Source of the DNA: Lutjanus erythropterus
Taxonomy: Eukaryota; Chordata; Actinopteri; Lutjaniformes; Lutjanidae
NCBI GenBank assembly: GCA_020091685.1
Contig: CM034594.1
Coordinates: 40,029,594 to 40,093,593, forward strand
Direction of reading: 5' to 3'
Length of the DNA: 64,000 nt
In this document: one piece after another, positions 44,681 through 57,920 of the stretch
How the letters are laid out: each line of letters begins with the position of its first letter
Numbering within the stretch: the first letter of the stretch is position 1
The notes under the pieces: generated by a model
Told to the model about the DNA's origin: nothing
Database searches by the model: none
The model's input: the letters and a program-made list of their open reading frames with translations, nothing else
Program-made: the position numbers and the translations under genes

Positions 44681-44764
44681 CTGCTCACGGCACCCGAACC
44701 CGTAGATCCGAACTTGTGTTATCTGACACCACAAGCTTGTATCTACAGGTCTGCGTGTGTGCAG
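44681..44764 (+). ncRNA. mir-100 precursor hairpin
   Basis: The 5p arm at 44697-44718 is the exact 22-nt miR-100 sequence (seed ACCCGTA; the middle reads CCGAACTTG, which separates miR-100 from miR-99a). The 3p arm at 44732-44753 starts CAAGCTTGTATCTA and, from memory, differs from human miR-100-3p at two positions. The arms pair across a 13-nt loop, and the basal stem extends to CTGC/GCAG at 44681/44764. CNNC motifs follow the 3' side at 44768-44774, as in many animal pri-miRNAs. miR-100 is a Dicer product that represses targets such as mTOR-pathway and differentiation genes. It is the first member of the cluster. An overlapping 90-codon open frame is not a gene. Confidence 0.98.
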
Positions 44765-44978
44765 CTCCAACAACCCGAGCAGCATCAGCAGAACGCAGCG
44801 GGCGCCGCTCACCAGCTCTCACCAACTTTATTAACCATTTCCCCCCATGTCACAGATACCAGCAGCGCTGCCTCATTCTGATCGAGAAAACAGTCACAGC
44901 CTAGAAAGTTTCCTCTGTCTGTGGGTAGAACTGCATCTGAGGATGGTTTGAAAGTCTCCACGTTCAAAACCTCTAGAG

Positions 44979-46957
44979 CAGGGGTGCCCAAACATCTTTT
45001 CTCTTAGAGGACCAAAACTGAAACTTCAGGGTGGTACATAATATATTGTGAAGTAGAGCTGCAACAATGAATCGGTTTTTTGATTATTAATCAACAATTA
45101 AACTTTTTGCCTTGTATTTTGATCATCAATTGTACTGAGTCATTTTTTACTAAAACTGTCCAAATTCTCTGATTTCAGCTTCTTAAACGTGAATATTTTC
45201 TGGTTTCTTTACTCCTCTCTGACAGTAAACTGAATATCTTTGGGTTGTGGACAAAACAAGACATTTGAGGACGTCATCTTGGGCTTTGGGAAACACTGAT
45301 CAATATTTTTCACCATTTCCTGACATTTTATGGACCAAACAGCTAATCAATTAATTGAGAAAATAATCAACAGATTAATCAATGCAGAATGGTACCAGGA
45401 TCCTAGGTTCCCTTCCCTGACTGACTGATTACTCTGCCTGCCATGCTCAAATTATGAAAAATAATTATGAAAATTCTGAAAAATAATGTGATAATGACTT
45501 TTTTTTTCACTAGAAACATCTGGATGACCAAATCAAATCTTATGGCGGGCCAGTTGTGACCTACAGACCCCATGTTAGAATGCCGTGATTTAAACTTACT
45601 GTTATTTTTGTCAGTGATCTAATCTGGAGATTGTTTTCTCAGTTGACTGATTAAGTGTTTAGTCCATCAAATGTCATAAAAAAAAAGAAAACAGTAAAGA
45701 ATGCCAATGACCAGTGTGACTGTCTCTGTATGAGGATTATTTTGTTTGACCAGATGCTCAAAGTCTAAAGATATTCAAATTAATAACAAAGAAAAGCTGC
45801 CACGTTCAAAGTTGAGAAGCTGGAACTCCAGCAGTTTTGGCATCTTTGCTTGAAAATTAACTTTAAATGATTTATTATAGCCAATATGATTTCTGCTAGG
45901 GTTGCAGCAGTCCCACAGGGGGCCACCCCCCCAGATTGGGAACCACTGAGATTACACAACTATTTATTTTTTCTTTTTCTTTTTTTCTTTTTGCCAGAAA
46001 CATCTGGCAGGCCAAATCAAACCTTATGGCAGGCTGGCAGGCCCTGTTTTTAAGTTTCACTTTTGTAATCGTTGAATCTGGAGATCATTTTCTCATTTGA
46101 TTGATTAATCCATCAAATGTCAAAAAATTGCGAAGAATGCCCGTCACAGTTTCCTAATGTGACTGTGTCTTAAAATAGCTGATTTTCTTGGACCAGCTGC
46201 CCAAAATCCAAAGATATTCAAATTAACAACAAAGAAAAGCTGCCATATTCAAATTTGTGAAGCTGCAACTTCAACATTTTCAGTATTTTTTTCCTTTAAA
46301 ATTGACTTAAAACAGTTAATCAATATACATTTTCTGCTAGGGCTGCAACGGTATGAGATTTTGGGGTCTCAGAAAATATCCCGGTTTCATGATATACAGT
46401 ATTACACAACTGTTATTATTAGTTCATTTTTAATTTTCTTCCCTCCAGAAACATCTGGCAGCCAAATCCTCAGTTTGGGCAGCACTGATTTAAACCAAGT
46501 ATTATTCTTTTGTCACTGGTCTAATTTGGAGATTATCTTCTCAATTGATTGATTAATCATCCATCAAATGTCAGAAAATAGTGAAAAATGTTTGTCACGG
46601 TTTCCAGATGTGACTGTGTCATCAAATAGCTTATTTGGTTTGACCAGCGGCACAAAATCCAGAGATATTCAAATTAATAACAAATTCAATATTCATATTT
46701 GAGAGGCTGGAACTTGAACATTTTTGGTATTTTTGCTTGAAAATTAACTTAAAACGATTGATCCATTATTGCCAATACATTTTCTGCTAGGGTTGCAATA
46801 GTATGAGATTTTCAGGGCTCAGAAAATATCCTGATTTGATTTGGTTTTCAGTTAACTTTTCTTTCTTTCTTTCTGTTTTTCGCTAGAGTCCGGTGGGCCA
46901 AATTGAACCTTTTAACAGCCCAGCTTTGGTCCCTGGGCCCCGCTTTGGGTAGCCCTG
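44979..46957. mobile_element. hAT-like element between mir-100 and let-7a, perfect 8-bp target duplication
   Basis: The termini CAGGGGTGCCCAAA and TTTGGGTAGCCCTG are inverted repeats with two mismatches. Both sides carry the identical 8-bp duplication CTCTAGAG (44971-44978 and 46958-46965). The 1,979-bp interior has three tandem units of about 447 bp, marked by TGTGACTGT at 45715, 46159 and 46609, and a nested AT-rich element at 45055-45386. No transposase frame exists, so it is non-autonomous. The intact duplication indicates a bona fide transposition into the presumed pri-miRNA. Confidence 0.9.
45055..45386 (+). mobile_element. AT-rich element (GCTGCAACGATTAAT family) nested in the hAT-like element
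   Basis: It runs from AGAGCTGCAACAATGAATCG to ACAGATTAATCAATGCAG and contains GACGTCATCTTGGGCTTTGG and AACACTGATCAATATTTTTC, as in the copy at 24538-24832. Confidence 0.85.
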
Positions 46958-46965
46958 CTCTAGAG

Positions 46966-47164
46966 TCCTCAACAACATGTTTTGCCAACCTTTTTGAGAC
47001 TCGTTTCTGTCAACAAACCTAAATAAAAAATTCTCAGATACCATCTCAGAGATCTTCTAACGAACCGCAGAGTTGAGTGAAGTTGTGTTGGGGTCTTCCA
47101 GGGGTCTTTGACACTTTCCACACATTTCAGTTCTGCTTCTCCAGCTGGACTTGGAGGGGTTAAG
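46966..47164. other. spacer, nothing specific
   Basis: No signal recognised between the hAT-like element and the candidate conserved block. Confidence 0.4.
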
Positions 47165-56091: not shown

Positions 56092-56586
56092 GTGTGTGTG
56101 TGTGTGTGTGTGTGTGTGTGTGTGTGTGTGTGCCCCCCCTCCCCTCCTCCACCCTCCCACCCCTCTCTCTCCCTTTCGGTGAGGCAGCATACTGGTATGC
56201 ATGCTTCACTGGCACTGTGGCCCCGGCTGCAAGCGCCGATTCCAGCGGCTTCGATGCTCCGTCTTTTATTTTACCTCTCTCTCCCTCTATCTCTCCTTTC
56301 CCGCTCTCTGTCTGTATCTCTCGCTCACTCACCCTATCTCTCCCCCCCTCTCCGTCTACCTGTCCCGTCTAACCTTTAAAGTATCGCTTCCTTCCAAGCG
56401 TTCCGTTTTCTGGGAAAGAGGGATCGTTGTCTCGCCGACTCTCTCCTCTCGCGACTCTCCTCCCCGGACTGCTCACTCGCGCTGTGTGTGTGTGTGTGTG
56501 TGTGTGTGTGTGTGTGTGTGTGTGTATGTGTGTGTGTGTGTGTGTGTGTGTGTGTGTGTGTGTGTGTGTGTGTGTGTGTGTGTGTG
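56092..56586. repeat. two long (TG)n microsatellites
   Basis: Runs at 56092-56132 (about 20 units) and 56483-56586 (about 52 units, interrupted by one A). Both lie in the intron between the candidate donor at 56004 and the exon at 56908. The long Cys-Val open frames here are artefacts. Confidence 0.95.
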
Positions 56587-56639
56587 AGAAAGAGAGCGAG
56601 AGAGAGCGAAGGGATAGAGGGAGAGAGAGAGCGTGCACA

Positions 56640-57420
56640 TGGTTCATTCCGGCTCGGTCCTACCACCCATCCTCATGCCTCTCTTTCTTGTCTCCGTCCG
56701 TCGCTCTCCTTCCCCCGTTGATTCCGCTCCGCTCCGGGGCGGCTCGCCGGACGCGCCGACCTCGTCCCCGCTTTGCCTTTTTTGTGAAAAATAAGCACAC
56801 CCTTCTTCTTCTTCTGAAAGTAACTGGAATCTTGTTGGCGTGCTGTACGTTTAAATCTGAGCTTTCTCTTTCTCTCTCTGTCTCTTTTTTCTTCCCCTCC
56901 TGAGCAGGAAGCGAAGCTGGGAAGAACAACGAGCGAAGGGGGCATCCTGGATCCGAAAGGGGAGGGTGAGTCGATACCAACGAATACTCTTCCTCTCCAC
57001 TTCCCTCTCGGCTCCCCATCTGTTTCCTAAGCTTTAGACCACCATGGTGGCATGAAGGAGCCGCGGAGCTTTGTTATCTGCCTCGTCTTTTCACTGTTGC
57101 AGCCTCTCCGGAGGATTCAGGGACCACACTGAAATGGGGGATTTGCGCTAGCGATGATTGAGCATGCACTGAATGATTTTATTAACGGTGACAGTCGGAC
57201 GAGGCGTGCAAGTCATCATGTCAGAGGGATTGTTTGACGCTGTGCGGTCCCGGCTTCAGATTTCGATGCTGTAGTCGATGCATCCGCGTGGGGGGTTTTG
57301 TCTCCGCAGCGGTGTTCGGCAATCATCGGGTGATTTTGATTTTCCCGGAGACGGCGGGAGATCTTTAGGCGTACTGTACGGCAGCGGGCTCTCTACCTGA
57401 TGGCAGGAGGCATTTTTCAA
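56640..57420. promoter_or_regulatory. CpG-rich segment
   Basis: CpG is much denser than in the rest of the window, for example CGCCGGACGCGCCGACCTCG near 56745 and in the 57240-57390 part. The segment surrounds the 58-bp candidate exon and lies 0.5 kb upstream of mir-125b. It may be a CpG island marking an internal promoter. Confidence 0.45.
56908..56965 (+). ncRNA. candidate 58-bp internal exon of the miRNA host lncRNA
   Basis: A long pyrimidine tract (56857-56900) leads to CCTGAGCAG, with the acceptor at 56906-56907. The donor is GGAGG|GTGAGT at 56966. The exon begins GAAGCGAAGCTGGGAAG. All the sequence signals for a constitutive internal exon are present. It lies between let-7a and mir-125b on their strand. 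Its frame from the upstream ATG at 41221 stays open but closes just inside the next candidate exon, consistent with non-coding RNA. Confidence 0.5.
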
Positions 57421-57832
57421 AGTGCTGTATTGTTCAGCTGAGGTGGGGGAGGGGGAGAGGGAGAAACAGAGAGAGTTGGGGGGGAGGCTGGCCAATGTTG
57501 TGTCTGGCTGAGGCTTGCACTTGTTGTATGTTCACAAATGCATATGGGGCAGCAGAGGTTGCAATGAGCATGCTCGACTAATGCATGGAATACAGGAGTG
57601 TGTGTGTTTGATGCGTAGCTGCATGCCTCGCTCTGTATGCAAGAGATGCTCAGATGCTCCGAGTCCTCATTTGACTCAAAGACGAGCTCAGTGCGTGGAA
57701 GCGTTCCTGCAAGATTTTTCTCTTGACGTCTTCGTAGCAAACAAAGACGGAGTCAGGATGCCGAATCCTGAGGGCTGAAGGCAGCTGTGTGAGGAGGAGG
57801 AGGATGTAGAGGTAGAGGAGTCCGTGTGAAGA
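57421..57832. other. spacer upstream of mir-125b
   Basis: Unique sequence with a GAG-rich patch at 57791-57820. No gene recognised. Confidence 0.4.
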
Positions 57833-57920
57833 TGCATCTCTCTCCGTCCCTGAGACCCTAACTTGTGACGTTGTGCTTTCATGTCCACGGGTTAGGCTCT
57901 CGGGAGCTGAGAGGGATGCA
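57833..57920 (+). ncRNA. mir-125b-1 precursor hairpin
   Basis: The 5p arm at 57847-57868 is the exact 22-nt miR-125b sequence (seed CCCTGAG). The 3p arm at 57887-57908 starts ACGGGTTAGGCTCT and, from memory, differs from human miR-125b-1-3p at one base, which excludes the mir-125b-2 paralogue. The basal stem pairs TGCATCTCTCTC (57833-57844) with GAGAGGGATGCA (57909-57920), one mismatch. A basal UG at -14 and a CNNC motif (CAGC, 57925-57928) 17 nt after the 3p arm are standard Drosha/SRSF3 signals. miR-125b, the lin-4 homologue, regulates differentiation, haematopoiesis and p53-pathway targets. It lies 10 kb 3' of let-7a. Confidence 0.98.

Follow-up and report, generated by a model that had tools for sequence, protein, structure and literature searches.

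The subject of this analysis is a 64-kb window of genomic DNA (the whole stretch analysed, C4:40029594-40093593), drawn from an assembly of 937.6 Mb in 444 contigs. Three microRNA (miRNA) hairpins lie on its plus strand, as follows, positions being those of the window unless a contig is named.

44681-44764, plus strand: mir-100 hairpin, with 5p arm 44697-44718 and 3p arm 44732-44753, recognised by exact 5p sequence, Rfam mir-10 and fold.
47745-47829, plus strand: let-7a-2-type hairpin, with 5p arm 47755-47776 and 3p arm 47800-47821, recognised by exact 5p sequence, Rfam let-7 and fold.
57833-57920, plus strand: mir-125b-1-type hairpin, with 5p arm 57847-57868 and 3p arm 57887-57908, recognised by exact 5p sequence, fold and 3p match.

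Very probably the window holds one of two mir-100/let-7a/mir-125b clusters of its genome, which is teleost-like; this cluster would be the orthologue of human MIR100/MIRLET7A2/MIR125B1 (11q24) and would have a transcript and processing of the type proposed below. The teleost label is based on a repeat word ascribed to percomorph fishes, present twice with 1 and 2 mismatches, together with the genome size and the number of clusters. The locus is already known in kind and lineage; it is an ordinary cluster, correctly recognised in a first-pass annotation.

The mature sequences of miR-100, let-7a and miR-125b (22 nucleotides (nt) each) were each found in the window as one exact copy on the plus strand, with no mismatches. 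The let-7a letters are backed by the Rfam let-7 match, and the 5p letters of miR-100 and miR-125b are printed in PMC8942954. Spacing between 5p starts is 3.1 kb and then 10.1 kb, and the order mir-100, let-7a, mir-125b on one strand is the conserved order. All three hairpins were stable in comparison with shuffled sequences: the minimum free energy was -30.3 kcal/mol for mir-100 (z -3.49), -31.4 kcal/mol for let-7a (z -3.48) and -52.7 kcal/mol for mir-125b (z -7.69), and of 200 shuffles each, 0, 1 and 0 respectively folded equally well. The first-pass claim of three exact mature miRNAs in stable hairpins, on one strand and in conserved order, is thus borne out by the exact matches and the folds, and its hairpin coordinates were correct to within a few bases. 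Rfam gathering cut-offs were passed by mir-100 with the mir-10 family (RF00104; 57.0 bits, cut-off 47.5) and by let-7a with the let-7 family (RF00027; 66.9 bits, cut-off 53.5).

Features expected of processed precursors were also present. Judged by eye from the folds, cutting the arms at the published positions leaves a 2-nt 3' overhang in all three precursors. The 5p arms of mir-100, let-7a and mir-125b are preceded by a UG at a distance of 15, 15 and 14 nt respectively, and CNNC occurs, among other positions, at +18, +20 and +17 nt past their 3p arms; both motifs are significant for Drosha. The terminal loop of the let-7 hairpin contains GGAG. The reverse strands of the hairpins fold as well (z -4.64, -2.08 and -5.91, in the same order), so that the strand is set by the mature sequences and not by folding alone. 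On the minus strand, the antisense of mir-100 was rejected as a candidate (Rfam mir-10, 38.5 bits, cut-off 47.5), and the antisense of let-7a at 47746-47827 scored 92.9 bits with mir-3596 (RF04289, let-7 clan; cut-off 96). Because the hairpins are near-palindromic, neither score is evidence of antisense transcription. A match to mir-2003 (33.7 bits, cut-off 114) proved to be the mir-125b hairpin itself.

A second complete mir-100/let-7a/mir-125b cluster is located on the minus strand at C11:24320172-24327003, with the same order and identical mature 5p sequences. It is more compact, its 5p starts being 0.7 and then 6.1 kb apart. Exact let-7a occurs at seven genomic places, two of which are beside mir-100, namely the window and C11:24326297-24326318 (minus strand), where mir-100 lies 685 nt upstream; the remaining five all have a further let-7 hairpin no more than 1.5 kb away. 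The mir-100/99 5p sequence was found at three places, two being mir-100 and one mir-99 (C11:35218203), and that of mir-125b, with at most one mismatch, also at three (the window, C11:24320172 and C11:35207704). The mir-99 and its mir-125b form a pair 10.5 kb apart (C11:35207704-35218224), about 10.9 Mb from the second mir-100 cluster, and the 3p arm of this mir-99 resembles mir-99a by eye. The 3p arms differ between the two full clusters, that of mir-100 being CAAGCTTGTATCTACAGGTCTG in the window and CAAGCTCGTATCTATAGGTATG on C11; the C11 let-7 3p arm reads identical to human let-7a-2-3p. Two copies of the same three-gene cluster are likewise seen in zebrafish (dre-mir-100-1/let-7a-2/mir-125b-1 and dre-mir-100-2/let-7a-4/mir-125b-2), and Table 1 of PMC5372658 lists two such clusters for zebrafish and one each for medaka, fugu and Tetraodon. 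Retention of extra miRNA copies by teleosts after genome duplication is described in PMC4159003.

Aligned hairpins of the two clusters are 68% (mir-100), 87% (let-7) and 82% (mir-125b) identical. Their consensus folds were better than all 300 column shuffles in each case (z -5.24, -5.44 and -8.17 respectively), whereas the control, one aligned repeat pair, gave z +0.68 with 222 of 300 shuffles as good. Pairing was kept by changes on both sides three times in mir-100, three times in mir-125b and not at all in let-7; in mir-100, 18 pairs were unchanged, four changed on one side and three on both. The z-scores and two-sided changes may be read as traces left by selection on structure, and such pairing-keeping differences between clusters are as expected after the teleost genome duplication.

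There is nevertheless a low probability that the cluster in the window has been degenerating since the genome duplication, its sequences persisting while expression comes only from C11. The spacing in the window is wider than on C11 (3.1/10.1 against 0.7/6.1 kb) and contains repeats; a degenerate array of roughly 450-nt repeats at 45185-46840 and 48619-49035, flanking a let-7a segment of about 1.8 kb, makes up part of the difference, and the gaps between the miRNAs also contain microsatellites. The mir-100 precursor of the window scores below its C11 counterpart in Rfam. Finally, a conserved element downstream of mir-125b, described below, reads TTGAGA in the window as opposed to GTGAGA on C11, which may be splice-donor-like. 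Decay would not, however, be expected to preserve all three 5p arms exactly, to maintain the pairing of mir-100 and mir-125b through bases altered on both sides, or to retain the downstream element.

The first-pass annotation had also named the paralogues from their 3p arms, which holds for mir-100 (not 99a) and mir-125b-1. The mir-100 3p arm has two mismatches from hsa-miR-100-3p and five from miR-99a-3p, position for position, and the mir-125b 3p arm has one mismatch from hsa-miR-125b-1-3p, while more than 12 of 22 positions differ from miR-125b-2-3p in an ungapped comparison. For let-7, the 3p arm shows no mismatch with the chicken gga-let-7a-2-3p primer, one with hsa-let-7a-2-3p and three with let-7e-3p. 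It is also one mismatch from human let-7c-3p, which equals its distance from human let-7a-2-3p; thus the let-7 3p arm alone cannot split let-7a-2 from let-7c, and it is the 5p arm and the neighbours that separate the two. This shared distance is what could favour the window being the mir-99/let-7c/mir-125b-2 paralogue in place of the mir-100 cluster, a reading that is highly improbable given that the 5p arms are exactly mir-100 and let-7a, that the mir-100 and mir-125b 3p arms match the -100 and -125b-1 forms, and that a separate mir-99 exists in the genome (C11:35218203), paired with a mir-125b at a distance of 10.5 kb. On the sequences compared, the paralogue assignment of the window cluster is supported. 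The 3p letters used in these comparisons are printed in PMC8942954, PMC5831925 and PMC3940920, and those of gga-let-7a-2-3p come from a polymerase chain reaction primer in PMC7324647. The probability that the 22-mers match by chance or mark pseudogenes is negligible, and nothing was found in favour of this, as none of 100 shuffled windows contained any match to the three mature sequences at three or fewer mismatches, and the hairpins, order, strand and duplicate cluster speak against it too.

The neighbourhood of the window cluster adds synteny to this identification of a mir-100/let-7a-2/mir-125b-1 locus. The relevant feature lies beyond the window on the same contig.

C4:40288450-40288632, minus strand: sorl1 exon, whose best PDB match is human Sortilin-related receptor (E 6.4e-26; best sortilin 2.3e-7).

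Among the 21 Vps10-domain matches listed, C11 has none and the minus strand of C4 has two, at 40288450-40295914; one of these exceeds the family cut-off and the other falls just short of it. The exon, on the strand opposite to mir-125b, lies about 201 kb further downstream. A low-density lipoprotein (LDL)-receptor class B repeat, another of the domains of SORL1, is present at C4:40261605 on the minus strand as the sole C4 match among 105, and fits the same sorl1 gene. In human 11q24, SORL1 lies downstream of the cluster on the opposite strand, with UBASH3B on the other side. The linkage to sorl1 supports an 11q24-type locus. The first-pass description of the window as the presumed teleost MIR100HG-type locus stands as to this type, with a putative host transcript, but not as to being the only one, in view of the second full cluster on C11. 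That second cluster is alike in genes, order, mature 5p sequences and downstream element, and differs in its tighter spacing, its other 3p arms and the lack of any C11 location among the listed Vps10 matches. Human MIR100/MIRLET7A2/MIR125B1, within MIR100HG at 11q24.1, has the same three miRNAs in the same order on one strand, with identical mir-100 and mir-125b 5p sequences. Differences from the window comprise small changes in the 3p arms, a distance from mir-100 to let-7a-2 of about 5.6 kb by the coordinates in PMC4742387 and PMC5831925 (3.1 kb in the window, followed by 10.1 kb), and a host transcript that is putative here.

By analogy with the known family, the three hairpins would most likely reside in introns of a long, plus-strand, MIR100HG-like noncoding transcript made by RNA polymerase II, possibly with extra shorter transcripts in which mir-125b is the only one of the three. 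Drosha/DGCR8 would excise the hairpins and Dicer would then trim them. The 5p strands, once loaded into Argonaute, would repress their target mRNAs both in cells that are differentiating and in adult ones; LIN28 could separately block the let-7 hairpin via the GGAG of its loop. In the human host gene, the three miRNAs are intronic according to PMC9544809. PMC4742387 places pre-let-7a-2, which has a 2-nt overhang, among the group I precursors and describes control of let-7 by LIN28 through GGAG; both the overhang and GGAG are seen in the window let-7 hairpin. According to PMC1388199, certain let-7 paralogues of vertebrates and of insects are co-transcribed with paralogues of mir-100 and mir-125. 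One shared transcript through the window cluster is likely on this analogy. A further feature bears on the transcription of mir-125b.

56001-58250, no strand assigned: stretch of G+C 0.52-0.54 upstream of and across mir-125b, holding the five highest CpG observed/expected bins of the window (0.73-0.81; 253 bins of 1000 nt, window median 0.40).

This stretch is a possible independent promoter of mir-125b, and its position before mir-125b would fit a separate transcription start.

Several points weigh against this reading of the window cluster. The mir-125b hairpin scored only 20.6 bits with Rfam lin-4 (RF00052), below the gathering cut-off of 40, and was scored higher by unrelated families, those being below cut-off too; the C11 mir-125b hairpin has no Rfam gathering match either, so the lin-4 cut-off says little here. 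The 57.0 bits of the window mir-100 compare with 74.5 for the C11 copy, which makes its arms less typical. The finding of zero broken pairs between the two copies is weak support, since it was from these two copies that the consensus folds were built, and no broken pair is seen in the repeat control either. Synteny with UBASH3B was not recovered, none of 15 His_Phos_1 matches being on C4 or C11 with a model that may miss a divergent domain. As for transcription, mir-125b is 10.1 kb past let-7a, behind the CpG-rich stretch. Transcription of the three human miRNAs is described as loosely related (PMC4742387), and PMC9544809 reports human transcripts that lack miR-100 or have miR-125b-1 as their only miRNA; one shared transcript is thus not the only form to be expected.

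A 40-kb region centred on the C11 cluster was compared with 144 kb made up of the window plus flanking sequence, and both clusters were then compared at a finer scale. Apart from the three hairpins, a single strong match was collinear.

58967-59040, plus strand: 74-nt conserved noncoding element, 85% identical to C11:24319298-24319369.

Its distance beyond the 5p start of miR-125b is 1,120 nt in the window, as against 824 nt on C11. The remaining strong matches were scattered or not collinear and were taken as dispersed repeats; a weaker collinear match covers window positions 55507-55540 (35 columns, E 0.001). A genome search reported the element at exactly two places, the window and C11, and none was found within about 1.5 kb of the mir-125b that belongs to the mir-99 cluster. 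Its 5' arm contains AGCAGCA, the mir-15/16 seed. The fold of the window copy has z -3.67, matched or bettered by 1 of 500 shuffles, or z -3.07 (4 of 500) when the ends are set slightly wider; for the C11 copy the values are z -1.34 (54 of 500) and, with wider ends, -1.07 (72 of 500). The consensus has z -3.0 (3 of 300), with two one-sided and no two-sided changes. As a miRNA, the element was rejected as insufficiently supported, the fold evidence being modest, the loop being conserved about as well as the arms and two-sided changes being absent. No publications were found in a literature search with 15-16 letter pieces of either copy. The simplest reading of the conserved sequence is that it may represent a cis-regulatory element or a transcript segment kept in both duplicates. 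That it would instead be a fourth conserved RNA of the cluster, a hairpin kept by both duplicates and either an unrecognised miRNA or a structural element governing mir-125b processing, is considered improbable.

Other hairpins of the window were surveyed in 12,784 windows of 90 nt (step 10, both strands), of which 1,251 had a single loop and at least 24 pairs, and 706 were left after overlap collapse; z-scores from 60 shuffles each were obtained for the 400 lowest-energy windows, and the best 40 were listed. Two hairpins ranked above mir-125b (-7.07), namely 53561-53650 (z -9.75 on the plus and -8.08 on the minus strand) and 6131-6220 (-9.57 and -9.98). Others, including 11391-11480 (-5.11) and 49991-50080 (-4.49, between let-7a and mir-125b), ranked above mir-100 (-3.41), and the best 40 did not include let-7a, which indicates that the scan separates real miRNAs poorly. 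The 53561-53650 hairpin was rejected as a miRNA. Its left arm belongs to a dispersed repeat, another copy of which, at 50.4 kb, agrees with it in 83 of 117 aligned columns but formed no hairpin in the two stretches folded. It is a near-perfect hairpin between let-7a and mir-125b and may be a young repeat-derived source of small RNA. The 6131-6220 hairpin, which recurs at 35681-35871, was likewise rejected; the two form a palindromic repeat with strong hairpins that looks like a miniature inverted-repeat element. Matches to SCARNA2, mir-483, MIR2118 and HOXA11-AS1_6 were below their cut-offs, within the simple-repeat-rich region at 55.5-56.8 kb, and were discarded. No Pfam families were detected by hmmscan (E 0.01) in 24 translations, with stops masked as X, covering all six frames of 1-14999, 15000-29998, 30000-44998 and 49002-64000, a scan that short exons would escape.

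The duplicate pair and the shared element leave existing knowledge of the cluster unchanged. The two clusters do provide a within-genome duplicate pair of a heterochronic cluster with the same 5p and distinguishable 3p sequences, so that small-RNA reads can show which copy is used, and the element downstream of mir-125b is a concrete candidate regulator of mir-125b retained in both duplicates.

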